A DNA stretch of 64,000 nt from Phaeobacter sp. J2-8. GTDB lineage: Bacteria; Pseudomonadota; Alphaproteobacteria; Rhodobacterales; Rhodobacteraceae. Shown here piece after piece: positions 19,029 to 34,935 of this stretch; position 1 is the stretch's first letter, and every line of letters begins with the position of its first letter. The notes under the pieces are model-generated. The model worked only from the letters and a program-made list of their open reading frames with translations, had not been told where the DNA came from and searched no databases. The position numbers and the translations under genes were made by a program. The stretch lies in contig NZ_JALIEC010000008.1 in assembly GCF_022867865.1 (NCBI RefSeq), positions 1-64,000 of the forward strand, written 5' to 3'.

Positions 19029-19514
19029 TTAAATCGGCACCTCAAGATCGAACAGTTTCGCGCGGTTGCGACCGTTTTCGGAGGTCACGAAATACTGGCC
19101 GGACAGACGGAATATGCCATCGGTGCCTGCCAGCATATCCTCAACCCGCAGCTCGACGGTTGCCTGTGGCAAGTCTTCGAACGGCCAAGGTTCCGAGGCG
19201 ACGCGCGCGCCGCTGATTTGCGTCAGATGCCGGGTCATTTCCAGCGTGATCGCGCGGGTGGGATCATCGGCCCAGAATATGCCTTCGCTTTTGCTGAGCA
19301 GGCCGAATTCATTGACAATGAACACCTCCTCTGCGCCGCCATAGGTCGGCAACGACACTTCGCGCAGCGCCACAGAGCCAAAAGCAATGCGCTGTTTCTG
19401 CTGCACTTCTGCCACCGGGATCGTGACCCGCTGTTCGACTGTGGATGCACATGCGGCCATAACCGCAAGCAGGCTAAGGGCAGCAATGGGTCGGATTTTC
19501 AACATGGGCTTCAT
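19029..19514 (-). CDS. pqiC: PqiC-like outer-membrane lipoprotein, apparently shortened by a TAA
   Basis: 161 residues as read. It has a lipoprotein signal (LSLLAVMAACAS, Cys about residue 22) and the ABC-type transport auxiliary domain (LPTYGGAEEVFIVNEFGLLSKSEGIFWADDP). PqiC is thought to link the PqiB tunnel to the outer membrane. The frame stops at TAA 19029-19031, but the same frame continues without interruption as GELGAASIAAALARAVQDLAYEIARNGLR to a TAG at 18939-18941. That is the normal C-terminal helix of the family and would make 191 residues. One substitution (for example CAA to TAA) explains it. Start overlaps the pqiB stop (ATGA). Confidence 0.8.
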   Translation of the reverse strand: MKPMLKIRPIAALSLLAVMAACASTVEQRVTIPVAEVQQKQRIAFGSVALREVSLPTYGGAEEVFIVNEFGLLSKSEGIFWADDPTRAITLEMTRHLTQISGARVASEPWPFEDLPQATVELRVEDMLAGTDGIFRLSGQYFVTSENGRNRAKLFDLEVPI

Positions 19515-21603
19515 CGTCCTGTGAGCAGAGAATTCGGATTGCGTTCAATCGCTTTGGCCAGCGATGCAACGGCTTTGGCAGCTTTTTGTATTTCGGCCAG
19601 CGCCAGTCGGGCTTCGCGGCCCAAACCGCCATTGGCCTCATACCCTTCCAATGTGGTCAGGGCCTGTGCGACGACACCCTGCATCTGTTTGATCAATGCC
19701 GGCAATGCCTTGCCGCCTTCGGCGAAAGTATCCGCGGCCTTGCTGGCGGACACAAGTGTCGTTTCGGCGTTCTCGATGATCTTGCTGTTGCCCAGCTTGG
19801 TCAACAACGCGCTCAGATCGGCCAATGCGACATTCAATTGACCGGGCAGGGCCTTGGTTTCATCCGACGCCAGCAGGGTTTCGGTGGTCGCCAGAAGTGC
19901 GCTCAGATCGTTGCCGATCGCCTCGATCCCCAGCTTTTCGACATTGGCGGCAATGGCATTCATCCGGGTGATCAGATCGGGCACGCCGGCCACGGAACTG
20001 TTTACGGATTGCGCGGCGGTGGTCGCCTCGGCCAGGGCGGCGGTCAGCTGCGCGGCGACGGCGGCCTCGTTGAATTGCGTGATCAGCTTGTCCAACTCGG
20101 TTACGGTGGCCCCCAATTCGGCGGCAATGCCCGCAGATCTTCGGAATTGACCAGACCACGGGCATCGCTGAGCAGATTGTTCACATTGCCCGGCACCGCC
20201 CGGGTGTCATCACTGCTGATCAAGGCGCTGGCATTGGCCATCAGGTTTATGGCCTGTTGCATCACCTCTTCCACCGGCAGGGCGTTGATGCGTTCGAACA
20301 CGCCTTCGGCGGTGGCCGACACATCGGCGATTTCATTTTCGGTGGTGGGGATGATCGGATAGCCTTCTTCGTTGTCCGACAATTCGGCGGCGGTGCCATC
20401 CGCCACTTCGACCAGCTCGACCTTCAATCCCCCGGTAAGGATGGACGCGGTGGCAAGCCGTGCCCGCAACCCATTGCTGACCCGTGTGCGGAAATAGTCA
20501 AGAACCGCATCGTCGCCCGCGCCATCAGCCAGCCCAAGCCGCCCTTGACGGATGGCCAAAGAGACCGCCAACCGCACGCGATGATCGCCGAACCGTTCGT
20601 CATCAATCAGACCATTGATTGCCGAAACCCGCCCAATGCGAAACCCGTTCAATTCCACCGGCGCATCCACCGCCAGACCGGCGATATTGTCATCAAACAC
20701 CGCTGACAGGCTGAAGATGTCGCCATCCTCTGGCGCAAACAGGCTGGCCCGCGCCGAGGCTTCTTCGGAAAAGACGGTAAAGACATCGCCCGAAGCGGCC
20801 GGATCACCGCCGGAAATCATGGTCTCGAAGGTGACGCCACCAGACACCAGCGATGCAACCGAGGAAAAATCCAAAGCCGCGCCACCGGGCCCGAAAGAGA
20901 AAGAGAACCCCGACGCATCCCAAAACCGGGTGGCGGAATTGATAAGCTTGTCATGCGGGGCAAAAATCACCGCCTGAACCTCGGCGGTGGACCCATCGGC
21001 GGAAATGGTCGGGCTGCCCAGCCGCCCGACGGAAATGCCGCGAAACAGGATCGGCGCATTGGCGGTCAACGTCGCATCCCCGGTGGCCCGCAACAAAAGC
21101 CGCAAACCGCCTTCGCCGCTGCGATCCAGCGGGGCATCGGCGAGGCCGGCGAACTCTTCGGTCAGCCCCTCTGCCGTATTGTCCCAGAACCCTTCGATAT
21201 AGACACCGGACAACACCGTGCTGAGCCCCGAGACCCCCTGCGCGGTTACCTGCGGGCGCACGACCCAGAACTGGGCGCCGGCGTCGACGTAATCCGCCAC
21301 TTCCTTGTCCAGCCGCACCGTGACCTCGACCCGGCCAAGACCGTCGGTAAATCCGACATCTTCGACCACGCCAACCGTCACGTCGCGATAGCGCAATTCG
21401 GTTGCGCCTTTTTGCACGCCGGACGCATTTTCAAAGCTGATGTAAATCACCGGACCTTTGTCCAGGTAATTCTGCACGGCAATGCCCACCACCGCAGCCA
21501 AGGCAATGACCGGGACAAACCAGATAAAGGAAATGCCCTTGAACACTCCCTTGCGCGCGGCCTTGATCGGCGCTTTGGGCGGTTGGGTGTCGGAATTCGT
21601 CAC
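19511..21603 (-). pseudogene. pqiB: PqiB/MCE-domain intermembrane transport protein, one-base deletion
   Basis: The locus has an N-terminal membrane anchor (GISFIWFVPVIALAAVVGIAVQ) and repeated MCE domains: VIYISFENASGVQKGATELRYRDV, then PILFRGISVGRLGSPTI, then APVELNGFRIGRVSAI. A long helical C-terminus rich in Leu/Asp repeats forms the tunnel needle in PqiB. GTG 21603 overlaps the pqiA stop. The frame breaks near 20120-20124; adding one base gives RALPAELGATVTELDKLITQ and continues to 19511, 697 residues in all. The protein moves lipids across the periplasm with PqiA and PqiC. As written only 500 residues are made. Confidence 0.83.
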
Positions 21604-23040: not shown

Positions 23041-23313
23041 TCAAGAGTCGATGCGCGGCGTGCCCTTGCGTGGTGCGGTCTCGGACGGGTCGGTCCATGT
23101 CACCCGCAGGCTGACCTGTGATTTGCCGTCTTCGACCTCGCCTTTGATGCGGACATTCATCAGATCGGCAGTCTTCAGAACCAGGGTGTCATCGTCGTCA
23201 CCCAGCACCATTTCGCCTTTGGAAAACCCCTTGGCCAAGGCGGTGAGCAGGGCCTTGATTGTTTTCGCATTCTGAAGGGATTCATGCGAAAATCGCTTGT
23301 TCGAACTGCCCAT
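23041..23313 (-). CDS. amphi-Trp domain protein
   Basis: 90 residues. The core FSHESLQNAKTIKALLTALAKGFSKGEMVLGDDDDTLVLKTADLMNVRIKGEVEDGKSQVSLRVTWTDP matches the small amphi-Trp domain: a helix, an acidic turn, then amphipathic strands ending in a Trp. The C-terminal tail is basic and Pro-rich. From memory of NCBIfam, this domain is found beside GAK-system genes, as here, where it is the last gene of the minus-strand set, 27 bases after the phosphatase. Its small size and acidic patch make it a candidate substrate of the locus enzymes. Function is unknown. Confidence 0.8.
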   Translation of the reverse strand: MGSSNKRFSHESLQNAKTIKALLTALAKGFSKGEMVLGDDDDTLVLKTADLMNVRIKGEVEDGKSQVSLRVTWTDPSETAPRKGTPRIDS

Positions 23314-23340
23314 GTGATGTCTCCCGGCTCTGTCTGGTGC

Positions 23341-24495
23341 TCAGATCATGCGTTCAGGCGCAAAATGTTTGGCCCGCGGATAATCCCGGCTTAACCCGAT
23401 CACATCTCCGGTCGGAAAGATCAAGGTTGCACCGGCGCCGATCCCCTCCAGCCCTTCCAGCCTGCGCGAGGTCCGGTCGAGGGTGATATCGCCCTCAAGA
23501 TGCAGCACACCGCGTTTGGCCAACAGGCGCTGACCCCGGTGATTGTTGACATGGCCCTGCACAACCATGTGGATGCCCGTCTGTGTCAGGGCGCTGACCC
23601 CGGTGTCGGTCAATTGGCAATCCGATTTGCGGTATTTGGTGCGCACAAGATTGGCCAAGGGCCCGAAATAAAACCCAAGCGAGGCCTGTTCCGCCTCTGC
23701 GCGGTACCGGGCGTTTACCGCATCGGTGCCCTTGCTCGCCAACAAGGCGCACATGCTGTCACACAGGCCGGCATGCACAAACAGCAAGGAACCGCTGCGC
23801 GTCACCACATCCATGGCGTCAAAAAACCAGGCATAGGCGCCAGCGGGTTCGAAAAACACCTCGTGGCATTTCAATGCCGCGGCCAGGATCTCGCGATAGC
23901 TCATGCCGCTGGCGGTGCAATGGGTGTCGAATTTTTTCAGCTTTTCCAGAAGCTTGCTTGTCTCTTTGCGGATCACTTTGGGGCGCACCTGACCTTTGGC
24001 CGCCACCGCAAAACGGTCCGGCCAATCCGCGCGCGGCGTCAATCGGGCCTTGCAGGCCGCTTCATCCGGCAATTGTGCCAGATCGGAGGTTGTCACGAAC
24101 CGGTCCAGCACCTCGCGCAGGATTGGCAGGATCTTGCGCCCCATCCGCACAAACAGATGTTCGCGCAGGGCATCGCGGGGCCCGCGCAGCGCCGCCACCG
24201 CCATGCGCATTCGCAGATCGTGATTGCCCGCCAGAATATGCACATCCGCGCCAGTGTGGCGCAGCGCATTCAACGCATCCAGAAGCGCCAGATTGCTTGG
24301 CCCCTTGTCGAGACTGTCCCCGCCCAGAATGATCCGGGCCTGGGTGCCGAATTCGGTCAGAACGATCCGCCCGATGTCCCGCCGGATGACGCCCGCCGCG
24401 ATCAGGGACCGCAGGAAACCTTCGGCATCGGCATGTGGATCAGAGACAAACACCACCGGACGGTCCGGCCAATGCCAGCCGCCATTATGCCCCAC
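23341..24495 (-). CDS. Calcineurin-like (PPP) metallophosphatase; N-terminus probably frameshifted
   Basis: 384 residues from GTG 24495. Metal-binding motifs are in order: VVFVSDPHADAEGF near residue 15, LGGDSLDKGPSN near 58, LAGNHDLRM near 95 and VQGHVNNHRG near 320, which is the D-x-H, GDxxDxG, GNHD, GH series of PPP-like phosphoesterases. Upstream, the same frame is open and protein-like (ADLPRDTEPWLDRRAQRQIADCLARVG) but meets a stop. One added base near 24569 joins it to MHPAAHLLPSVFDTDFVL, so the true start may be 24623 or TTG 24644. It lies in the GAK-like locus after a histidine phosphatase, so the pathway probably contains phosphorylated intermediates. Confidence 0.75.
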   Translation of the reverse strand: MGHNGGWHWPDRPVVFVSDPHADAEGFLRSLIAAGVIRRDIGRIVLTEFGTQARIILGGDSLDKGPSNLALLDALNALRHTGADVHILAGNHDLRMRMAVAALRGPRDALREHLFVRMGRKILPILREVLDRFVTTSDLAQLPDEAACKARLTPRADWPDRFAVAAKGQVRPKVIRKETSKLLEKLKKFDTHCTASGMSYREILAAALKCHEVFFEPAGAYAWFFDAMDVVTRSGSLLFVHAGLCDSMCALLASKGTDAVNARYRAEAEQASLGFYFGPLANLVRTKYRKSDCQLTDTGVSALTQTGIHMVVQGHVNNHRGQRLLAKRGVLHLEGDITLDRTSRRLEGLEGIGAGATLIFPTGDVIGLSRDYPRAKHFAPERMI

Positions 24496-24686
24496 ACGGG
24501 CCAGACAATCGGCGATCTGGCGCTGCGCGCGACGATCCAGCCAGGGCTCTGTGTCGCGCGGCAGATCGGCAAGACAAAATCGGTGTCAAAAACGGACGGC
24601 AAAAGATGCGCCGCAGGGTGCATGGGCAAGGGAGGGGATTCCAAGGTCGGCCTTTCCGTCAGTCGTCACCAGAGATGTCGCTGCGG

Positions 24687-25373
24687 TCAGTCCATCGCCT
24701 CTTCCTTGGGCGCACGCACTTTCCACTCTCCGGTCAAGTGACGCCAGTTACCATGCGGCCCATGACAGAATAGTAACGGTTGGGCATGAAACATCGACAA
24801 ACGGGCAATATCTTCGCGCGCCAGCACCCCAAGGTGATGAAAGGCATGGCGAAAGGATGCCCCATGGCCGACGTGGATTGTCAGCAGGCCGGGTGTCACC
24901 GTCGATTGCAGGTGCCCGGCGACCCGCGCCCCGGCCTGCATCAGGGATTCCGCACCTTCCAGCGGCAGACAATAGTCGCTGTCGGATTTCCACCCGGCGG
25001 GCGGCGGCCCATATCGGGGGTCATCGCGCAGCACGGCTTCGATCTCGGCCAGGGTTAGATTGGCTGCCGACCCGACCCCGCGTTCGGCAAGATCAGAGGT
25101 TTCCGTGATCCGTTCCACCCCGATGCCGCAATCCTGCAACGTGATCAGGATTTCCGACGCGGTTTGCCAGGCCCGCAATTGGCGCGACGCATGGATGACG
25201 GGGGCAACGGTCAGGTTATGGGCCGCGATCATCTCTGCCAGGGCAAGCGCCCCGGCGCGGGCCTGGGCCTTGCCCTGGCTGGTCAGGGCAAAGGGTTGCC
25301 GTGCGGACGGCGCGCCGCTGCGTTGTTCGTAAGCGCCATGCCGCAGGATCGCGACAAATCCGGTGTCAGCCAT
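24687..25373 (-). CDS. Histidine phosphatase superfamily protein
   Basis: 228 residues. The catalytic RHG is at residues 11-13 (ILRHGAYEQRSG), and the second active-site His sits in IHVGHGASFRHAFHHL. An Arg of the phosphate pocket lies in SRQLRAWQTA. Start 25373 overlaps the HprK-related gene by eight bases; the frame upstream of it is that gene in another phase. It is one of two unrelated phosphatases in the GAK-like locus. The target could be the product of either kinase. The family also includes mutases, but no second-phosphate site can be inferred. Confidence 0.82.
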   Translation of the reverse strand: MADTGFVAILRHGAYEQRSGAPSARQPFALTSQGKAQARAGALALAEMIAAHNLTVAPVIHASRQLRAWQTASEILITLQDCGIGVERITETSDLAERGVGSAANLTLAEIEAVLRDDPRYGPPPAGWKSDSDYCLPLEGAESLMQAGARVAGHLQSTVTPGLLTIHVGHGASFRHAFHHLGVLAREDIARLSMFHAQPLLFCHGPHGNWRHLTGEWKVRAPKEEAMD

Positions 25374-26442
25374 CAAAAATCTGCCGTCCAAATTGCGCCA
25401 GCGCATCAAAATCGACCCGGCCCGACACTTCGCAGACCCGGACACCGCGCAGAGCGGACAAATAGGGTTCCGGCACCGGCATCGCGCCGTTGGGTTCAAA
25501 CCGGCCATCCGGGTGCTGATAAAACGATCCGGGGCTTTTGACGATCGCGCCAAGCAGATCCGGCCGCCGCGTCAGATCCACTTCGGCGACATCGGTTGGC
25601 GCATCGCTGTCGCGGCTCCAGTTCAACACCCAGAAATCCGTCAGGGGCGCATTATATTGGATACGGTTCGGGCCATAGATGTCCGGGATCACCAGATCAT
25701 GTTTTTGCTCCAGATCCCACAGCACATCGGCGGGCAGCGCAAGCACCTGGGCGCGTTCCCCGTCCGACAACATCCCGGACAGACGCGGATTGCCCAAAAT
25801 GGTGCCGGGGTTGATGCGCGGATGTTTCGGGATGCCAAGGGCTTGGGGGGGATGTCCGGCCTTTACCAGAAGCCGGTCGTTGGACACAAACCGGGTGCTG
25901 TCGAAATCCAGCATGCGCAGGATCGAGGTCGATTTGCCGCCCCCCGACAGACCCGAGATTGCCAGGGTGCCCGCGCCGTCCGTCACCGCCGCCGCATGGC
26001 ACAATTGCCACCCATCGCGAAGACAATGGCTTAGGATCTGGGTGTTGATGAAATTGATCACTGTGCTGGAATTTTCGGCCAGCGGCCCCATGGCGATAGC
26101 CCAATCCGCGTTTTGCACAAAGGTCACACCGCTGCGGACCTTTTTGATCAATCGACCGTCCGGCAAGTCGCAAACTGCATCCTTGCGGCCGGATTTTCCG
26201 GTCTCGCGCTGCCAATCATTCCACTCTGGTTCCGGGGTCAACATTTGATCGGGCAGCAAATGCACCACGATTTCCCCCGGTTCCGGCGTCAGCGCATCCG
26301 CGTAATAGGCAACCAGTTCACTGCGCAACGCGCCGGGGCAAAACACGGTGATGCCAACCGGCCCAACCCGAAGTGAAAACGGCTCTGCGCCCTGGGCAGG
26401 GGAGAGGTCAAGTTGCGCGACGATGTCTTGTATCGTGGTCAT
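25366..26442 (-). CDS. HprK-related kinase (type B)
   Basis: 358 residues. A Walker A loop GLSGGGKST lies at residues 164-172 and is followed by FVSNDRLLV, matching the HPr kinase/phosphorylase core, where this Asp/Asn pair positions the nucleotide. The N-terminal 150 residues are not the HprK N-domain. No HPr is encoded here, so the acceptor is probably not HPr. Its start overlaps the ATP-grasp stop (ATGA 26439-26442), so the two are likely made in fixed ratio. The family is one of the defining members of the GAK gene set (recollection of NCBIfam naming). Confidence 0.83.
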   Translation of the reverse strand: MTTIQDIVAQLDLSPAQGAEPFSLRVGPVGITVFCPGALRSELVAYYADALTPEPGEIVVHLLPDQMLTPEPEWNDWQRETGKSGRKDAVCDLPDGRLIKKVRSGVTFVQNADWAIAMGPLAENSSTVINFINTQILSHCLRDGWQLCHAAAVTDGAGTLAISGLSGGGKSTSILRMLDFDSTRFVSNDRLLVKAGHPPQALGIPKHPRINPGTILGNPRLSGMLSDGERAQVLALPADVLWDLEQKHDLVIPDIYGPNRIQYNAPLTDFWVLNWSRDSDAPTDVAEVDLTRRPDLLGAIVKSPGSFYQHPDGRFEPNGAMPVPEPYLSALRGVRVCEVSGRVDFDALAQFGRQIFDG

Positions 26443-27320
26443 TGGCTGACCTCTTGGATTACATGGTCCGCGACCAGCGCCGCCGCGTCGATGCCACAGC
26501 CCTTTTGCGCGCCGCTATAGCCGCCAAAGGCCGAGACCTCGAATACAATTGGCCCGTCCGGGGTCAGGGCGATATCAACGGTGGTAAAGGTCAAACCAAA
26601 CGGCGCCTGCGCCTTGCGGCCCAATTCGATCAGCTCGGGCGTCGGATCAAACGCCGCATATTTGCCGCCGGAATGGATTGTCGTGTTCCAACTGTCCGTC
26701 TGGCTGACACGGGCATAGGTGCAGACATATTCGTTGTTCAGAAACACCATGCCCAGATCATGCCCCGACAGATCGGCCTTTTGCTGGATATACATCACCG
26801 GATTGGCGGCTTTGAACGTCGCGATCTGCTCTGCCGCATCCGGGGCGTCATGATCCAGCAGGATCATTCCGCGGGCCTTGGTCGAAAACAGTGGTTTGAA
26901 CACCGCCGAGCCGTAACGCAGCAATGCCGCCTGCGCGGCCTCGACATCTTCGGTGATGGTTGTGGCGGGCATTGGCACATCGGCATTGGTCAGGGTCACC
27001 GTACAGGCCAGCCGATCCATCAGCCGCAGCACGCTTTCGGCAGAGCTGAAAATGCGCACGCCGCGCGCCTCGGCCACGCGCAACATTTCCAGCCGATCCA
27101 GCGCGTCGGGGCTGTAGTCTTCGGAAATCTTCTTCAGGATCAGCCCATCCAGACCACAGAGATCCACGCCATCGCAAATCAATGTGCCTGCCGCCAGATC
27201 CAGCGTCACAGATCCCATGTCGATCACACAGCGAAACCCGGTGCGCGCCTCCAGCGCGTCGGCCAGGGCCTCGGTCGACCATTTTCCGGGGGTCCCGATG
27301 ACCCCGATTTTCTTAGTCAC
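26439..27320 (-). CDS. GAK-system ATP-grasp enzyme
   Basis: 293 residues, similar in layout to RimK-type ATP-grasp ligases: an N-terminal domain (KKIGVIGTPGKWSTEALADAL), a central ATP-binding stretch with AVFKPLFSTKARGMILLDHD (the catalytic-lysine strand) and YIQQKADLSGHDLGMVFLNNEYV, and a metal-binding end DIALTPDGPIVFEVSAFGGYSGAQKGCG (Glu in FEVSAFGG). Members join a carboxylate to an amine or thiol, using ATP. Start is GTG 27320, overlapping the kinase gene by eight bases. The partner substrate is unknown; the small amphi-Trp protein or a peptide tail is possible. Confidence 0.83.
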   Translation of the reverse strand: MTKKIGVIGTPGKWSTEALADALEARTGFRCVIDMGSVTLDLAAGTLICDGVDLCGLDGLILKKISEDYSPDALDRLEMLRVAEARGVRIFSSAESVLRLMDRLACTVTLTNADVPMPATTITEDVEAAQAALLRYGSAVFKPLFSTKARGMILLDHDAPDAAEQIATFKAANPVMYIQQKADLSGHDLGMVFLNNEYVCTYARVSQTDSWNTTIHSGGKYAAFDPTPELIELGRKAQAPFGLTFTTVDIALTPDGPIVFEVSAFGGYSGAQKGCGIDAAALVADHVIQEVSQ

Positions 27321-28944
27321 TAAACAGCATCCTTATCGGCAGTTTGAAGCGCGCCTCGCGGCCCACGGGCACGGCCAACGCACAGTCAAGAATATAGCGG
27401 GCGCGCAGCATCATGCGTTTGGCATGGCCGCGATCCACCACAAAGCGGGTCGAACTGGCAAAGGACCGCGCAAGCCCCAGCGCCAGACGATATTCAAATG
27501 TCGGGTCCTTGTGGCGGCGGGCGAATTTGGCCGCCATGTCATGCATGTCTGCGGCCACATTTGCAATCCGCGCACGCGTGCCCGCATCCAGCACCTGAAG
27601 CCGGTAGTTCGACACCATGAACACCGACACGTCCTGAACGTAATCCATATAACGCGACCGGTGCAGGTCGATAAAACGGATCTTTTTGTCCGCCCCGTCA
27701 TAAATCACATTGTCGAGGTTGAAATCGCCATGAATATAGACCGAAAACGGCGCTTTGACCGTCTTTTCCCGGGCGGCGGCGGCGGTGATCAGGGCATCGA
27801 AACTTTCGATCGCCAGACCATTGATGCCAAGCCGCCCATGGCCGTATTTCGGGTGCAGACGATAGACATCCTGCATCCGCTTGGCCAGTTGCTCCATCGC
27901 GGCCATTTCGGCCGGCTCGTCTGTCCGGGTCTGCCGCCAAATGTCGCGCACGGTCTTGTGCAGGGCGTTCTGCGCCTCTGCCAGACCTGCATCACTGCCG
28001 CCCAGCACGATATCCTCAAAGGTTTCGCCCTGGAGATGTTCGATCAAAAGCGCCGCCGAGTTGCCGCGTTTTTCATAGGAAAATATCTCGGGCGCCAGAC
28101 CGGGGTAGACCGAATTCCAGCTTTTCACGCCAACCCGCTCTTCCTTGACCTTGCGCCGATCCCCGTCCTTGAACACCACAGCGACAGAGTCGCCCTTGGC
28201 GTTGCGCATGGTGGCGCTGGAAATTGCGCTGCCGGACCGGGTTTCGGCCAGCGGCTGCAATTTGACCTCTTCGTCTTTGCCAGCCCCGGCCAGAACACTG
28301 CGCAGGGTGAAATAACGTTCAAATTGAACCGGTTGACCGATGTTGATCGACAGGATCGCCTCGCTTATCGCCTGAACCGCTTCGCCCATACGATAGATTT
28401 CGTTCAGAACCAAAAGACCATGCGCCAGGTCGGCGGCATGTTTGGTGCCCTGCATGTCGCGGGTATAGGTGCGGAACAATTGATCATGCAGCACGACAAG
28501 TTCGGCCCGTGCGGTGCCGATCTTGACCGCCAGTTTGCTATCCCGGGTGTCAAGCGCATCAGGGACCAGCGCCACCGAGGCCCGGACCAGTTTCACCGGC
28601 GCAACATAGGCATCGGCGCGCAAAAGTTTCTGGCGCTCGACGCCTTCGGCATGTTCGACAGCGCGCCGGCCCAGCCGGGAAATCAGGTCCAGATTGCGGG
28701 CGATGGTATCCACCGCCTGAAGCTGCATTTGCCGCGCGCTGCCCTCTTTGGTGCGCATCATGCCAGCCAAACAGCCCTTGCGCACCCGCGACGACAAATT
28801 GTGGGAATACCCGGCGCGCCCGATCAAGTGATGGGCGGTCTCGCTGCGCGGCGCATCGAAATAGGCGGTCAACCGCGACAGTTGGCCATCCATTTCCGCC
28901 AGCAGAAACGACATGTTTTCTTCGACGACATCGGGCAGCTTCAT
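27313..28944 (-). CDS. PhoU-like plus APH-like kinase fusion protein
   Basis: 543 residues. Residues 1-220 are helical and resemble PhoU four-helix repeats (ENMSFLLAEMDGQLSRLTAYF, AVDTIARNLDLISRLGRRAVEH, LAHGLLVLNEIYRMGEAVQAISE). Residues about 250-530 look like an aminoglycoside/choline kinase: VAVVFKDGDRRKVKEE (a beta-strand pair), catalytic HGDFNLDN at 405-412 and metal Asp in IRFIDLHRSRYMDY at 426. ATG 28944 is preferred over an upstream ATG because the region before it is not family-like. First gene of the minus-strand set of the GAK-like locus. Which small molecule or protein it phosphorylates is not visible. Confidence 0.8.
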   Translation of the reverse strand: MKLPDVVEENMSFLLAEMDGQLSRLTAYFDAPRSETAHHLIGRAGYSHNLSSRVRKGCLAGMMRTKEGSARQMQLQAVDTIARNLDLISRLGRRAVEHAEGVERQKLLRADAYVAPVKLVRASVALVPDALDTRDSKLAVKIGTARAELVVLHDQLFRTYTRDMQGTKHAADLAHGLLVLNEIYRMGEAVQAISEAILSINIGQPVQFERYFTLRSVLAGAGKDEEVKLQPLAETRSGSAISSATMRNAKGDSVAVVFKDGDRRKVKEERVGVKSWNSVYPGLAPEIFSYEKRGNSAALLIEHLQGETFEDIVLGGSDAGLAEAQNALHKTVRDIWRQTRTDEPAEMAAMEQLAKRMQDVYRLHPKYGHGRLGINGLAIESFDALITAAAAREKTVKAPFSVYIHGDFNLDNVIYDGADKKIRFIDLHRSRYMDYVQDVSVFMVSNYRLQVLDAGTRARIANVAADMHDMAAKFARRHKDPTFEYRLALGLARSFASSTRFVVDRGHAKRMMLRARYILDCALAVPVGREARFKLPIRMLFSD

Positions 28945-29145
28945 GACAAAGCCCCAAGGGCACCAGAAAAGTGTTGCCAAACAGGCCCGGATCGCGCCGT
29001 AAATTGATCAGATCTGGCCCTGCAAAAGACAAGATGCAGCGGCAGACATATGTGGTAATCGGATTTCATGCGGCCTTATGGCTGCGAAGTATAACAATTC
29101 AAAGACAGAAATTGCCGTGCCTCAATCAGTCGGAACATAACTGCC

Positions 29146-30327
29146 ATGACGTCTATTCGGATTACGCGTGACCTGCGACTGCCTGATGATCTGCGGGTGG
29201 CCCGGGCGCGCAGTGCGCCACATTTGGGGCCGCGTGTGCTTTTCTTTAGCGGCGGCAGCGCGCTGAATGACATTTCCCGCCAGTTGAAACGGCTGACGTT
29301 CAATTCGATGCATCTGATCACACCGTTTGACAGCGGCGGCAGTTCCCAGGCGCTGCGGCTGGCGTTTGACATGCCTGCGGTCGGGGATCTGCGCAGCCGG
29401 CTGATGGCGCTGGCGGATGAAACCGTATTGGGCCAGCCGGATGTGTTTGCGCTGTTCAGCCACCGTTTGTCCAAAACCGCGCCACAGGCCGAATTGCGCC
29501 AGCAGATCGACCAGATGACCTCGGGCAAACATCCGATGATCGCCGCTGTCGCAAAACCGATGCGGCAATTGATCCAGACGCATTTGCGCAGTTTTTGCGA
29601 TCATGTGCCCGCCGATTTCGATTATCGCAACGCCAGCATAGGCAATCTGATCCTTGCGGGCGGGTATCTCGACAATGGCCGCGCGTTAGAGCCGGTTCTG
29701 TTCCTGATGTCGAAAATGGTGGATGTGCGCGGTCTTGTGCGCGCGGTGGTGGATGAAAACCTGCAACTGGGCGTCGATCTGGCGGATGGTCGTCGCATTC
29801 TCAGCCAGCGATTGATCAGCGGCAAGGAAGTTGCGGCGCTCAAAAGTCCGATCACGCGTATTTTTCTGAACGATGGCCGCGAAGAGATCGCCCCGAACAA
29901 AGTGCCGCTGCCCAAGCGCAATCGCAGGCTGATCGAGCGGGCCGATGTGATCTGCTATCCGCCCGGCAGTCTTTATTCCAGTGTGATTGTCAACTTGCTG
30001 CCCGCCGGGGTGGGCCGTGCGGTTGCGCAGCGCCGGGTGCCCAAGGTCTATCTGCCAAGCCTGGGCCCCGATCCCGAGGCAATTGGCCATTCCCTGGCTG
30101 AACAGGTCGATGCGATCCTGACGCCCCTGCGCGCCGATGCCGGGGACGACACCCCGGCCAATCACCTGATGACCCATGTGCTCTGCGATACGTCCTGGTC
30201 GGAAAAAGCATGCGCCACCGTCACCAAACGCCATGGTATTGCCTGTCACCGCATGGACCTGCGACAGGGCAAAAGCGACCGCTATGACCCGGAAAAGATT
30301 GCGGAAATGCTGGTGTCACTGGACTAA
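29146..30327 (+). CDS. GAK-system CofD/YvcK-like protein
   Basis: 393 residues. YvcK/CofD signatures are FSGGSALNDISRQLKRL (35-51), ITPFDSGGSSQALR (58-71), the ASIGNLILAGGYL strand (163-175) and ADVICYPPGSLYSSVIVNLLP (266-286). In CofD this fold transfers a phospholactyl group, while YvcK-type proteins bind UDP-sugars, so nucleotide-linked substrate binding is likely. It diverges from the kinase gene with a 201-base gap. The ribosome site is weak. Together with the ATP-grasp and HprK-related genes it gives the diagnostic GAK trio. Confidence 0.83.
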   Translation: MTSIRITRDLRLPDDLRVARARSAPHLGPRVLFFSGGSALNDISRQLKRLTFNSMHLITPFDSGGSSQALRLAFDMPAVGDLRSRLMALADETVLGQPDVFALFSHRLSKTAPQAELRQQIDQMTSGKHPMIAAVAKPMRQLIQTHLRSFCDHVPADFDYRNASIGNLILAGGYLDNGRALEPVLFLMSKMVDVRGLVRAVVDENLQLGVDLADGRRILSQRLISGKEVAALKSPITRIFLNDGREEIAPNKVPLPKRNRRLIERADVICYPPGSLYSSVIVNLLPAGVGRAVAQRRVPKVYLPSLGPDPEAIGHSLAEQVDAILTPLRADAGDDTPANHLMTHVLCDTSWSEKACATVTKRHGIACHRMDLRQGKSDRYDPEKIAEMLVSLD

Positions 30328-30451: not shown

Positions 30452-31918
30452 TTACAACTCTAGATAGGCTTGCAAGGCGGCTTCGACGCCTTTTGACCAA
30501 ATCAGGGTCAACCATTTACGAAAATCACTGCGGAACTGCGCGTTGTCAGCCAAAGCGCCATATAGTTCGCGCTGTGCCAGCCAATGATCCGGGTCTGATT
30601 TGGCCAGTTTGGCCGTCGCGGTCAAACGCGCCCAGATCGGATCATTTGGCTCGATCACGCTGCCATCTTCGCGGGTGCCCGCGCACATCCGTGCCCAAAG
30701 CGCCTGTGACAATGCCAGCCCGGAAACCGGCGTGCCCGCCGCCAATGCATCGCGGATACCCGGCAACACCGCCCCGGTGTGGCGCGACGACCCGTCAAAG
30801 GCGACCCGGCGCACGGTGTCATAGATCTTGGGGTTGGCAAACCGCCCGCTGATCAGATCGACATAGGCCGCCGGCGTCATGCCCGGCACGTCATGCACAT
30901 GCGGCGCGATTTCGGTCAATGCGACCTTTTCCAGATAGGCCCGGATGCCGTCATGCGCCATGGTGTCGGCGATGGTTTCAATCCCGAGGATCTCTGCCGG
31001 GGCGGCGATAAGCTGATGACCGCCGTTCAGCATCCGCAGCTTCATCGCCTCGTAGTCGTGCACCTTGTCAGACAGGGTAGCGCCAACCGTTTCCCAGGCC
31101 GGGCGACCATTGCAGAAATCATCTTCGATCACCCATTGGCGGAAATTTTCGTGGGTGACGGGCGCGGCGTCCTCGACCCCGATGCCGCGCGCCAGCTCCA
31201 GCTCCTTTGGGCCGGTCGCGGGCACGATGCAATCGACCATGGAATTGGGAAAGCTGGAGTTTTCTTCGATCCAGGAAGCAAGATCGGCATCCATCAATCG
31301 GGCCAGCCCGATCACGGTTTCCCGCAGCTTGACGCCATTGCCCGGCAGATTGTCACAGCTTTGACAGGTAAAGGCCGCATGACCCGCGTCACGGCGCGCG
31401 CGCAGGGCGGCAATCATCGCGCCAAACGCGGTCCGCGGTGTGCCGGGATTGGCGACATCATGTTGAATATCGTCCTGACTGGCGTCGAATTTCTTGGTCG
31501 CGGGATCAAGATAATAGCCGCCTTCGGTCACGGTCAGCGCCACAATGCGAATGGCCGGATCGGACATCTGCGCTATCAGCGGGCCATTTCCGTCGACAAT
31601 TGGCACATAGTCGATCATTGACCCGACAACCTCGGCCGAGGTGCCTTTGGGATCAAGTTCGATCAATGTGGTCAGGTAATCCTGGGCTGCAAGGCGCGCG
31701 CGTTGAGCTTCGTCAAAGCTGCGCACACCGGCGCCAATGATGGCCCAGTCCTGCGCTTTTCCGGCCTGCATCAGCTGATGCAAATACCAAGCCTGATGCG
31801 CGCGGTGGAAATTTCCGAGACCAATATGCACAATGCCCGGCGTCAGCTTGGACCGGTCATACGTCGGGCGCGCAATGGCTGCGGGCAGGTCATTCAGGGT
31901 CGCGTCGGACAATTTCAT
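30452..31918 (-). CDS. mtlK: Mannitol 2-dehydrogenase (polyol-specific long-chain dehydrogenase)
   Basis: 488 residues, usual length. The nucleotide-binding IVHIGLGNFHRAHQAWYLHQL lies at residues 28-48, and the catalytic K-N-H set in KLRMLNGGHQLIAAPAEILG near 300. It oxidises D-mannitol to fructose with NAD, and related enzymes also take arabitol or sorbitol. ATG 31918 is chosen because family homology begins there and AAAGGGA precedes it. It is the last gene of the smo operon, 172 bases after smoK. No sorbitol dehydrogenase (smoS) is present between them, unlike Rhodobacter. Confidence 0.9.
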   Translation of the reverse strand: MKLSDATLNDLPAAIARPTYDRSKLTPGIVHIGLGNFHRAHQAWYLHQLMQAGKAQDWAIIGAGVRSFDEAQRARLAAQDYLTTLIELDPKGTSAEVVGSMIDYVPIVDGNGPLIAQMSDPAIRIVALTVTEGGYYLDPATKKFDASQDDIQHDVANPGTPRTAFGAMIAALRARRDAGHAAFTCQSCDNLPGNGVKLRETVIGLARLMDADLASWIEENSSFPNSMVDCIVPATGPKELELARGIGVEDAAPVTHENFRQWVIEDDFCNGRPAWETVGATLSDKVHDYEAMKLRMLNGGHQLIAAPAEILGIETIADTMAHDGIRAYLEKVALTEIAPHVHDVPGMTPAAYVDLISGRFANPKIYDTVRRVAFDGSSRHTGAVLPGIRDALAAGTPVSGLALSQALWARMCAGTREDGSVIEPNDPIWARLTATAKLAKSDPDHWLAQRELYGALADNAQFRSDFRKWLTLIWSKGVEAALQAYLEL

Positions 31919-32039
31919 CTCTGGTCCCTTTCCGGTCAGCTCTGCACGCTGGCCGCCATCGACATGGGGCAAATAGGAAACAACACTTGGTCTGGTCCGG
32001 CGGGACCGGACAGAGGGTGCCGTGGATTTCATGGCGGAT

Positions 32040-32076
32040 GGGATGCACCCTGGCCGTCAGGGCCGGGGCGCATCCC
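32040..32076 (-). other. Hairpin in the smoK-mtlK spacer
   Basis: Outer arms GGGATGC (32040-32046) and GCATCCC (32070-32076) enclose an inner GC-rich stem (CTGGCC against GGGCCGG). A second small stem, GTCCGG/CCGGAC, is at 31995-32011. They lie in a 172-base spacer inside the operon, where Rhodobacter has smoS. They may limit read-through into mtlK or stabilise the transporter mRNA. Confidence 0.5.
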
Positions 32077-32090
32077 CTGCAAAGGTTGGA

Positions 32091-33095
32091 TCAGCTAATC
32101 CGAAGCCCATCGGCCCCGAATTTATGCAAATGCTGCATCTGCGGTGTCAGATAGACGGTATCCCCATGTTTTACCGCCACTTCCCCCCCGGCCCGCACAG
32201 TCAGCGGATCGCAACCTTCGATGCCATGGATGTGGATGAACGTGTCGCTGCCCAGATGTTCGGCCACACCAACCGTGCCTTGCCACTGGCCTTCGGTTGT
32301 CGAGACATCCAGATGCTCCGGGCGAATGCCGATGGTATGGGCATTGTGTTTCGCCGCTTCGCTGCCTTCGATCAGGTTCATCTTGGGCGATCCGATAAAG
32401 CCAGCCACGAATTTGTTGCGCGGTTCGCGATACAACTCCAGCGGAGAGCCGACCTGTTCGATCACACCGGCCTGAAGCACCACAATCTTGTCGGCCATGG
32501 TCATCGCTTCAACCTGGTCGTGGGTGACATAGATCATCGTGGTTTTCAGACGCTTGTGCATCTCCGAAATCTCTAGCCGCATCCCGACCCGCAAAGCCGC
32601 GTCGAGGTTTGACAGAGGTTCGTCGAACAGGAACGCCGAAGGTTCACGCACAATCGCACGGCCAATTGCCACACGCTGACGTTGCCCACCCGAAAGCTGA
32701 CCCGGGCGCCGATCAAGATAATCGGTCAGGTTCAGCGCCTTGGCGGCGGCGTCGATCCGGCGGGTCTGTTCGGCTTCGTCCATGCCGGCCATCTTCATCG
32801 GGAATGCGATGTTCTTGCGCACCGACATATGCGGATAAAGCGCATAGGATTGGAACACCATCGCAAGACCGCGTTTGGCCGGGGGCAGGTTGGTCGCATC
32901 CTGGCCGTCGATGTCGATCTGACCGGATGTGATATCCTCCAGCCCGGCAATCAGACGCAGAAGGGTGGATTTACCACAACCCGAAGGGCCGACGAAAACC
33001 GTGAACTCGCCTTCGTGGATGGTCAGATCAAGCGGCGGGATGACGTTGACATCGCCAAAGCTCTTGGTGACTTGGTTCAGTTGAATTTGTCCCAT
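32091..33095 (-). CDS. smoK: Polyol ABC transporter ATPase SmoK (UgpC/MalK type)
   Basis: 334 residues. Walker [10 protein letters not shown] lies near residue 37, the signature [14 protein letters not shown] near 135 and Walker [13 protein letters not shown] near 155. A C-terminal TOBE domain ([10 protein letters not shown]) is where regulatory subunits bind in MalK. It powers SmoFG. It begins 12 bases after smoG, so is clearly in the same transcript. Sequence alone would permit other sugars; SmoE and mtlK make polyols the best call. Confidence 0.9.
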
Positions 33096-33107
33096 AATCT
33101 CTGGTCC

Positions 33108-33938
33108 TTATTTCACAGCGCCGAAGGTCAGGCCGCTGACGAGTTGTTTCTGGCTGAACCAGCCAAGAATGAGGATCGGCGCAATTGCCATGGTGGATGC
33201 CGCGCTGAGTTTGGCGTAGAACAGGCCCTCGGGGCTGGAGTAGCTGGCGATGAACGCGGTCAGGGGGGCCGCTTTGGCCGCTGTCAGGTTCAGGGTCCAG
33301 AAAGCTTCGTTCCAGGCGAGGATAAAGTTCAGCAACATGGTCGAGGCGATGCCCGGGATGGCCATTGGCGTCAGAATGAACAGGATCTTATCCTTCAGAC
33401 CGGCACCGTCCATCCGACCCGCTTCGAGGATTTCACCGGGGATTTCCTTGAAGTAGGTGTAAAGCATCCAGACAATGATCGGCAGGTTCATCAACATCAG
33501 CACGATGATCAGACCGGTGCGGCTGTCCAGCAGGCCAAGTTTGATGAAGATCAGGTAGATCGGGTAAAGCACCCCCACCGCCGGCAACATCTTGGTCGAC
33601 AACATCCAAAGCAGGATGTCCTTGGTTTTCTTTGATGGCACAAAGGCCATGGACCAGGCGGCGGGGATCGCAATGATCAGCCCCAGGATGGTTGATCCGC
33701 CCGCGATGATGATCGAGTTCATCAGAAACCGACCATAGTTCGACCGGTCCAGAACGTCGCTGTAGTTTTGCAACGTCCAGTCAAAGGCAAACAGGACGGG
33801 TGGATCGGAAATTGCCTGTGCTTCGGTTTTGAAGCTGGTCAGGATGGTCCACAGGATCGGAAAGAAGATCAGCAGACCCACAGCCCAGGCAGCGGCGGTA
33901 TTGATCGCTTTGCGTTGATTGGTAACGGCACGTGCCAT
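33108..33938 (-). CDS. smoG: Polyol ABC transporter permease SmoG
   Basis: 276 residues with six membrane spans. The cytoplasmic EAA loop reads EILEAGRMDGAGLKDKILFILTPMAIPGI near residue 180. The N-terminus AAWAVGLLIFFPILWTILTSFKTEAQA matches MalG-type permeases. It pairs with SmoF; 13 bases separate the two genes. No damage visible. Confidence 0.9.
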   Translation of the reverse strand: MARAVTNQRKAINTAAAWAVGLLIFFPILWTILTSFKTEAQAISDPPVLFAFDWTLQNYSDVLDRSNYGRFLMNSIIIAGGSTILGLIIAIPAAWSMAFVPSKKTKDILLWMLSTKMLPAVGVLYPIYLIFIKLGLLDSRTGLIIVLMLMNLPIIVWMLYTYFKEIPGEILEAGRMDGAGLKDKILFILTPMAIPGIASTMLLNFILAWNEAFWTLNLTAAKAAPLTAFIASYSSPEGLFYAKLSAASTMAIAPILILGWFSQKQLVSGLTFGAVK

Positions 33939-33951
33939 GATTAATATCTCC

Positions 33952-34818
33952 TCACGCGTCCAGGTTCTTGCCGACGATGCGCATCAGGAAGATGGCAACG
34001 ATATTGGCCAGAATGATTGCATAGACACCACCCGCAGACCCAAGTCCGACGTTCTGGCTTTCCAACACGCGCTGGAAGATCAGATATGTCAGCGTCCGAG
34101 ATCCAAATGCACCACCTGTGGTCACAAAGATTTCGGCAAAGATCGACAGCAGGAAGATCGTCTCGATCAGGATCACAATGGTGATCGCGCGGCTGAGGTG
34201 CGGCAGAATAATGTAGTAAAACCGTTTCAGAACCGGTGCGCCGTCCATTTCCGAGGCTTCAAGCTGTTCACCGTCCAGCGATTGGATCGCAGTCAACAGG
34301 ATAAGCGTGGCAAACGGCAACCATTGCCAGCTGACAATTGTAATGATCGAAAACATCGACGCATCGCTAAGCCATTCGACCGGTTGAGCCCCAAAGAATT
34401 TCCAAAGATGCGCGAAAAGCCCGTTCACAGGATCCATGAACATGTTCTTCCACACCAGTGCCGACACGGTCGGCATGACAAAGAAGGGTGCAATCACCAG
34501 GATACGGACAACGCCCTGGCCCCACATCGGCTGGTTGAGCAGGATGCCCAGAAGCACACCGAACACGACGGTGATCAACAATGTGCCGCCAACGATGACA
34601 AGGGTGGCCTGGACACTCGGCCAGAAGGCCGAAGAGGTGACGAACCGGACATAGTTGTCAAATCCGGCCCATCCAAGATCGCCACCGCGCAGGGGCAGGT
34701 ATTTCTTGAATGAGAAATAGAGCGTCATGATAAGGGGAACGAGCATCCATCCAAGGAGTAGAATGACTGCGGGTGCCATCATCATGCGTGCTGCGGATCG
34801 GGAGTGTTGGGTCGCCAT
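33952..34818 (-). CDS. smoF: Polyol ABC transporter permease SmoF
   Basis: 288 residues with six spans, MalF-like. The EAA loop is EQLEASEMDGAPVLKRFYYIILPHLSRAI near residue 195. Start 34818 (MATQHSRSAARMMM) is chosen over an upstream GTG 21 bases earlier because GAGGGAA lies at proper distance. It follows smoE by 117 bases, a spacing that often holds an mRNA-stabilising structure after the binding-protein gene; the region is GC-rich but no clean stem was found. Confidence 0.9.
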   Translation of the reverse strand: MATQHSRSAARMMMAPAVILLLGWMLVPLIMTLYFSFKKYLPLRGGDLGWAGFDNYVRFVTSSAFWPSVQATLVIVGGTLLITVVFGVLLGILLNQPMWGQGVVRILVIAPFFVMPTVSALVWKNMFMDPVNGLFAHLWKFFGAQPVEWLSDASMFSIITIVSWQWLPFATLILLTAIQSLDGEQLEASEMDGAPVLKRFYYIILPHLSRAITIVILIETIFLLSIFAEIFVTTGGAFGSRTLTYLIFQRVLESQNVGLGSAGGVYAIILANIVAIFLMRIVGKNLDA

Positions 34819-34935
34819 GACGCAATTCCCTCTTCTCACGCTAAGTGCATGTGGAACACGGATAAAACTGGTAATGAATAAAGGGGAAGGGGGACCGAGG
34901 GACAGCTTGCGCCGCCCCCCGGCTTGGGAGGAGCC

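Follow-up and report, generated by a model that had tools for sequence, protein, structure and literature searches.

What do seven adjacent genes for two predicted kinases, a ligase-like enzyme, two phosphatases, a small amphi-Trp protein and a CofD-like protein do together, and do they form one system at all? This question is raised by positions 23041-30327 of a 64,000-nucleotide stretch of Phaeobacter sp. J2-8 (contig NZ_JALIEC010000008.1, positions 1 to 64,000), hereafter the window, where the genes make up a locus of the type that NCBIfam names GAK. The six genes on the minus strand proved to be one system, an operon whose gene set and order are fixed, whose genes overlap and whose members are largely present or absent together, whereas the divergent CofD-like gene is an optional neighbour, not a fixed part, and often lives alone. 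The six genes make up a GAK-type operon that is mobile and accessory; as to function, we tentatively read it as a reversible phosphorylation and ligation switch centred on the amphi-Trp protein. The features of the locus are as follows.

27313-28944, minus strand: PhoU-APH kinase, the first gene of the operon here, with a PhoU-like helical N-terminal domain and an aminoglycoside/choline-kinase-like domain
26439-27320, minus strand: GAK ATP-grasp enzyme, RimK/MptN-like (TIGR04356, 441.6 bits; cut-off 300)
25366-26442, minus strand: HprK-related kinase B, HprK-B (TIGR04355, 284.8 bits; cut-off 200)
24687-25373, minus strand: histidine phosphatase, branch 1 (PF00300, His_Phos_1, 45.4 bits; cut-off 21.7), start inferred
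23341-24495, minus strand: PPP-type metallophosphatase (PF00149, 21.9 bits; cut-off 21.5), its N-terminal part in another frame at about 24496-24650
23041-23313, minus strand: amphi-Trp protein of 90 residues (TIGR04354, 59.6 bits; cut-off 31) with a conserved C-terminal tail, PRI here
29146-30327, plus strand: GAK CofD-like protein of the YvcK/CofD family (TIGR04357, 489.5 bits; cut-off 340), an optional accessory
28945-29145, no strand: intergenic region between the divergent units, aligned across loci; many relatives have a NUDIX gene here, the window has none

All seven genes that had originally been predicted were present, six on the minus strand and the CofD-like gene divergent from them. 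The original identification as the NCBIfam GAK set held as well, because the four models TIGR04354, TIGR04355, TIGR04356 and TIGR04357 (model type subfamily or hypothetical equivalog) all scored far above their cut-offs on adjacent genes. Among Pfam models, APH (38.8 bits, cut-off 23.2) and CofD (114.5, cut-off 30) were clearly matched, Amphi-Trp (26.9, cut-off 27) stayed just under, and PhoU (20.8, cut-off 23.5) was below its cut-off. The likely starts, both inferred, were revised to 28944 for the PhoU-APH kinase and to 25373 for the histidine phosphatase. On the minus strand the kinase is followed by the ATP-grasp enzyme, HprK-B, the histidine phosphatase, PPP and amphi-Trp; the overlap is 8 bases for the first two genes, 4 for ATP-grasp and HprK-B, and 8 for HprK-B and the histidine phosphatase if the inferred start is used.

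The named GAK system was thus already known; new are the corrected list of parts, the separable CofD and the conserved tail of amphi-Trp. The NCBIfam set counts the optional CofD and lacks models for the recurring PhoU-APH kinase, histidine phosphatase, PPP, NUDIX and SixA-NUDIX proteins. The set consists of curated family names, and no experiment or other study of the system was found among the open-licence PMC papers listed in searches by family names and gene combinations, in line with the earlier statement that no biochemical role was known. It is the true parts (PhoU-APH, ATP-grasp, HprK-B, histidine phosphatase, PPP, amphi-Trp and often NUDIX, with CofD not always present) that decide what to delete, co-express and assay.

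The unity of the operon was established by comparison of 52 loci with HprK-B, which include many close relatives and are therefore not 52 independent cases. They comprise the window, 27 of 80 named loci of the Rhodobacterales and the Roseibium group found through CofD, two loci of the phylum sample found through CofD (L035, L038), 20 found through HprK-B or ATP-grasp, and two plasmid records. None of them departed from the core order. HprK-B was present in all 52, the kinase and the ATP-grasp enzyme in 51 each, amphi-Trp in 50, an intact PPP in 46 and an intact histidine phosphatase in 45; the count for amphi-Trp joins 47 loci of the first survey with L049, L064 and L066, where closer inspection placed the gene inside the operon. 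The sole locus without kinase and ATP-grasp is L184, where the contig start cuts them off, and in L189 a contig end inside PPP removes the amphi-Trp position. Gene overlaps were also kept: kinase and ATP-grasp share 8 bases in 39/51 loci, and ATP-grasp and HprK-B share 4 in 42/51. Since the six genes stay together in one and the same order across many bacteria, they can be regarded as one machine, and the proposal that they form a single system that includes amphi-Trp agrees with this unbroken order and with the co-occurrence counts given below.

Constant flanking genes were considered as extra parts and discarded: when the neighbours of 29 GAK loci were clustered, nothing beyond the core, NUDIX, SixA-NUDIX and overlapping frames passed 8/29. 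One locus carries an insertion between PPP and amphi-Trp (L188:10927-15439), made up of an AAA_21 ATPase and RloB-like pair, a CHAD-domain protein and a ParA-like ATPase. Two further loci (L086:8935-11188 and L091:9352-11173) hold remnants of ATP-grasp or PPP beside CofD, with a GAK ATP-grasp over the cut-off elsewhere in the genome; we regard these remnants as traces of local loss.

We then asked how the families co-occur among genomes. Apart from control genomes, all genome sampling was within one phylum, of which 398 genomes formed the sample. HprK-B exceeded its cut-off in 14 of these, amphi-Trp in 21 and CofD in six. Of the 14 HprK-B genomes, 12 also had amphi-Trp (Fisher p 9e-16, with no correction for relatedness); the two others were G156, in which the locus is cut, and G140, which is 87% complete and has no amphi-Trp over the cut-off. 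CofD was found in only five of the 14. Among 24 CofD-bearing genomes of the Rhodobacterales and the Roseibium group, amphi-Trp was present in 4/4 with GAK (three whole operons and G443, where a contig end holds an ATP-grasp fragment) and in 0/20 without. Amphi-Trp therefore tracks the operon closely in these genomes, whereas CofD does not.

The independence of CofD was equally visible from the other side. Fifty genomes carry CofD apart from HprK-B (a count that leaves out L105, L117 and L119); 18 of them have a GAK ATP-grasp elsewhere, one has the fragment in G443, and 31 have none over the cut-off. CofD does adjoin the operon in 32/52 loci, but this figure is inflated because many loci were found or chosen through CofD (the 27 named loci, L035 and L038 were found that way, and L192-L200 come from genomes selected for CofD), and the fair figure is that of the 398-genome sample. 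A constant co-occurrence of all families, as first expected, hence did not hold for CofD.

The surroundings of CofD point to a putative sugar-linked role of its own. A glycerate 2-kinase-type gene stands just before a GAK-free CofD in 12 loci (Roseibium/Labrenzia types and two unplaced alphaproteobacteria), and in 12 loci CofD has a glucosylglycerate-hydrolase-like gene (344.8 bits, cut-off 550) and a sugar ABC transporter in its vicinity; nine of these loci are shared with the former set and one (L100) is a GAK locus. Both flanks are present in those nine, e.g. L101:8246-18488, where CofD stands between the glycerate 2-kinase-type gene and a cluster of LacI, sugar ABC transporter and glucosylglycerate-hydrolase-like genes. 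In another lineage, a 673-residue protein (L040:9352-11370) joins a CofD-like N-terminal half to a glycosyltransferase-2-like one, with matches to AglJ, PpgS and glucosyl-3-phosphoglycerate synthase that are all below cut-off. Beside CofD in the window, positions 30452-34839 hold mannitol-dehydrogenase and sugar-type ABC transporter genes, and the same kind of set is seen on other Rhodobacteraceae plasmids; the nearness of CofD to sugar transporters is given here simply as seen. The window protein matches the YvcK/GlmR model TIGR01826 at 98 bits, below the cut-off of 196. GlmR is tied to GlmS and UDP-GlcNAc (PMC7525490).

What, then, may the six core proteins do? The family profile of the PhoU-APH kinase matched solved PhoU structures (4q25, E 9e-10; 1xwm, 1.6e-6; 1t72, 1.2e-5) as well as the APH structure 4feu (E 1.6e-6). 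It was by this profile that the PhoU domain was recognised; single-sequence scores were below the Pfam and NCBIfam cut-offs. HGDFN, the D-N that follows it and IDLHR are invariant in 19 sequences. Models of APH(3') aminoglycoside resistance enzymes did not reach their cut-offs (best 29.5 bits against 205).

The ATP-grasp enzyme matched the RimK structure 4iwx (E 2.9e-19). MptN, RimK and CofF are glutamate-adding enzymes, and after its own model the protein scored best with these: MptN 128.9 bits (cut-off 350), RimK 88.5 (143.4) and, weakly, CofF 30.7. It thus shares fold and ATP-grasp core with the RimK/MptN/CofF/LysX ligases but falls below the cut-off of each family. The metal-binding triad of RimK consists of Asp, Glu and Asn, and the Asn binds metal. 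In the GAK enzyme the Asp and Glu are kept and the Asn is replaced by Ser in 19/19 sequences, with an invariant EVSAFGG where RimK reads EVNASPG, so that the protein lacks the full RimK signature.

HprK-B aligned with an alphaproteobacterial HprK profile (E 1.7e-12, 97.7% probability) with the P-loop, His149 and Asp189 in register. In this it resembles HprK; it differs by Asn for the first Asp of the HprK pair, with about 140 further residues before it. The first Asp of that pair is the general base, and Asn188 takes its place in 19/19 aligned sequences. The predicted structure (predicted local distance difference test, pLDDT, 92.8) superposed over its full length on ATP-dependent PEPCK (Z 15.1, root-mean-square deviation 5.3, 300 residues) and with its catalytic half on HprK/P (Z 13.1, deviation 2.5, 131 residues); Foldseek template-modelling scores were at most 0.46 by query length, and a sequence search of solved structures returned no HprK or PEPCK chain. 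An identity as PEPCK was rejected in spite of the whole-length fold match, the profile match being weak (hhalign 52.7% with 59 columns aligned around the P-loop, compared with 97.7% for HprK). The genome of the window also carries an ordinary short HprK-like gene (G000 C11).

As for the phosphatases, RHG is kept in 44/45 intact members of the histidine phosphatase family and all five motif patterns in 37/46 members of the PPP family. A NUDIX gene, absent from the window, lies next to the kinase start in 31/51 loci (confirmed as Pfam NUDIX in the two tested). A SixA-NUDIX fusion was found in 16/52 loci, inside the operon, upstream of it or beside CofD, and the window locus has no SixA gene. In the one member tested, the SixA half reached 34.5 bits against a cut-off of 74.5. 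An HG pair is present in 6/15 readable members (RHG in three, CHG in three) and the catalytic His is lost in 9/15, counts that omit two of 17 rows with unreadable starts, so that the catalytic RHG of SixA is not a general feature of this half; the NUDIX half looks kept.

Amphi-Trp is the only part of the operon without an enzyme family name. It is predicted to form one helix and four strands (pLDDT 84.4), and the model found no Foldseek match in the PDB at E <=0.001 and at most Z 2.2 with VIA-align. The last ~15 residues are a linker that ends in [PL]-x-[IV]; residues 81-90 have a mean pLDDT of 58, and the tail is therefore read as flexible. A stretch that looked, by eye, like the surroundings of the HPr phospho-serine was dropped as a sign of kinship with HPr, given a different predicted topology and a residue other than Ser/Thr in 8/52 (a simple pattern count in which a row or two may be misplaced). 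Haloferax volcanii, a control genome, also has an amphi-Trp protein, and one GAK-free amphi-Trp gene stands beside a Ppx/GppA-family gene (L229:3063-4688).

We tentatively favour the reversible switch because reversible protein-modification circuits are usually built in this way, from a small non-enzyme protein, two phosphate writers, an amide-forming enzyme and several hydrolases. The largely kept kinase, ligase and phosphatase signatures support it, and the unbroken core order, the gene overlaps, the near-constant presence of amphi-Trp in the operon and its conserved tail count in its favour as well. In such a circuit, the PhoU-APH and HprK-B kinases would put phosphate on a target that amphi-Trp either is or presents, and the ATP-grasp ligase would attach an amino acid or other carboxylate to that amphi-Trp-linked target. 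The histidine phosphatase and PPP, with NUDIX and SixA-NUDIX in relatives, would remove the phosphate marks. Through its state, amphi-Trp would report a metabolic input for which the PhoU-like domain would be the sensor, and its [PL]-x-[IV] tail on the flexible linker might serve as docking site for the operon enzymes. The CofD-like protein would bind sugar nucleotides as an optional accessory with a separate role. LysW-LysX carrier-protein biosynthesis likewise combines a small protein, a LysX-related ligase and a kinase in one operon; unlike there, the last residue of amphi-Trp is not conserved. A stronger version is unlikely, namely a new carrier-protein chemistry or protein switch in which amphi-Trp would hold a ligated group that would be phosphorylated by two unrelated kinases (HprK-type and PhoU-controlled APH-type) and reset by up to four types of hydrolase, as a plasmid-borne accessory phosphate-sensing circuit of marine bacteria.

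Several observations weigh against the switch. Amphi-Trp has no invariant acceptor: by a simple pattern His10 is found in 50/52, Ser12 in 47/52 and Ser/Thr17 in 44/52, and neither hydroxyl residue is present in the proteins of L190 and L191, although both kinases are kept there. The unconserved last residue argues against a C-terminal ligation of the RimK or LysW type. In L184 (L184:2973-7229, from the 87% complete G140, of a lineage other than the Rhodobacterales-type genomes), 6 kb beyond PPP hold no amphi-Trp, and a RecQ-like frame lies on the other strand. The [PL]-x-[IV] motif was found in 46/46 distinct tails from 47 loci, with 11-13 residues separating it from the last Trp (shuffled mean 4.7, maximum 14), but relatedness is left uncorrected in this null, and the count was made after the motif had been chosen by eye on related sequences; a similar -x-I-S tail ends 3/6 aligned GAK-free amphi-Trp proteins (L227 and L231 left out). 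Eight of the 21 amphi-Trp genomes have neither HprK-B nor a fragment of the operon (G194, G197, G070, G081, G141, G169, G216 and G383), and a ninth without HprK-B over the cut-off, G184, has a piece of the operon at a contig end; because amphi-Trp also occurs outside GAK, its presence alone is no marker of the system. The histidine phosphatase and PPP are absent or broken in six loci, and the former also in L191 (PPP was looked for genome-wide in five of the six, L095 being left out, and the histidine phosphatase was judged at the locus), so that the erasers are dispensable. Small molecules are frequent substrates of NUDIX and histidine phosphatases, and the enzyme activities of all parts are predicted ones. 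It is on account of the missing invariant acceptor, the dispensable phosphatases and the exception in L184 that the switch remains a tentative reading.

It is also possible that the operon is a small-molecule pathway in which the kinases and the ATP-grasp enzyme (with CofD where it is present) would build a phosphorylated, amino-acid-capped cofactor or messenger by an F420-like logic, the NUDIX, histidine and PPP phosphatases would degrade it, and amphi-Trp would be carrier or receptor; the parts suit such a metabolite pathway almost equally well. The next-best matches of the ATP-grasp enzyme, the recurrence of two NUDIX types, the full-length alignment of HprK-B with PEPCK, a small-molecule enzyme, the retention of the L184 operon without amphi-Trp and the CofD family, which makes the F420 backbone, all fit this explanation. 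Set against it, no neighbour cluster other than those named above passed 8/29 GAK loci, so that carbon-skeleton enzymes and transporters are not among the fixed parts within 9 kb, CofD accompanies HprK-B in few genomes of the sample, and the sequence of HprK-B favours HprK over PEPCK. The predicted parts would allow for the function originally suggested, "building or switching of a modified small protein or cofactor".

Improbable, on balance, is a regulator of the nitrogen phosphotransferase system (PTS), in which HprK-B and the SixA-type and histidine phosphatases would act on HPr or NPr instead of amphi-Trp. HprK-B is a homologue of HprK with P-loop, His and second Asp, a short HprK-like gene is present in the same genome, and E. 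coli SixA acts on NPr according to PMC6282199 and PMC7948535; however, the SixA half has lost its catalytic His in most readable members, SixA-NUDIX was not found in 36/52 loci, HprK-B has Asn for the first Asp throughout, and no PTS gene was noticed among the neighbours, where no search aimed at PTS genes was made. Still less probable would be a polyphosphate or phosphate-storage system, with PhoU sensing phosphate and hydrolases trimming polyphosphate. The PhoU domain, the NUDIX and PPP hydrolases, the CHAD domain and ParA-like ATPase inside L188 and the Ppx/GppA-family gene of L229 could be explained that way, but PPK1 was not found in 9/35 GAK-positive genomes, the window's included (nor in 4/20 GAK-negative ones), and the genome of the window has no CHAD protein. 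That unrelated genes stand together by chance has next to no probability: CofD and amphi-Trp each occur alone elsewhere, but the genes of the core overlap and their order is unbroken in 52 loci from several families. Independent scattering in relatives, which the original prediction had named as its refutation, was not seen for the six-gene core, and a chance grouping is refuted there.

A frame problem affects PPP in the window, where the first ~50 residues are in a different frame compared with relatives (24490-24660); the catalytic motifs are intact and the part with the active site is open. On the same contig a thiolase gene (L265:8353-9427) is split into two overlapping frames, and an MlaD-domain (PqiB-like) gene at 19511-21603 seems to continue in another frame near 20100 and may be split too. 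A sequencing or assembly slip is for this reason as likely as a genuine mutation in PPP. Scans for promoters (one promoter-like site, 2.3 expected) and terminators (12 terminator-like sites, 8.6 expected) were uninformative, and comparison by eye of the divergent region of 13 loci made no conserved operator evident.

A phage or defence role was rejected, as the HprK-B and ATP-grasp patterns found no relative on viral contigs and PADLOC gave 0/8 proteins at E 0.001. The GAK ATP-grasp was not found in the other three genomes of the window's genus (1/4 positive), and it is present in 2/3 genomes labelled Salipiger bermudensis. HprK-B was on 5 of 72,556 plasmid records, all from Rhodobacterales; of three Tritonibacter mobilis records among them, the one inspected has no CofD beside HprK-B. 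With close relatives that have and lack the operon, and with some copies on plasmids, a direct test is feasible for an ordinary laboratory. The window's contig (144 kb) has a short repC frame of 260 residues, and its ends do not overlap. This repC-like gene (PF03428) follows ParA-type and ParB-type genes at ~87.5-90.7 kb (L265:3454-6662, G000:C16), and because the three stand in a row, the contig is probably a RepABC plasmid or part of one.

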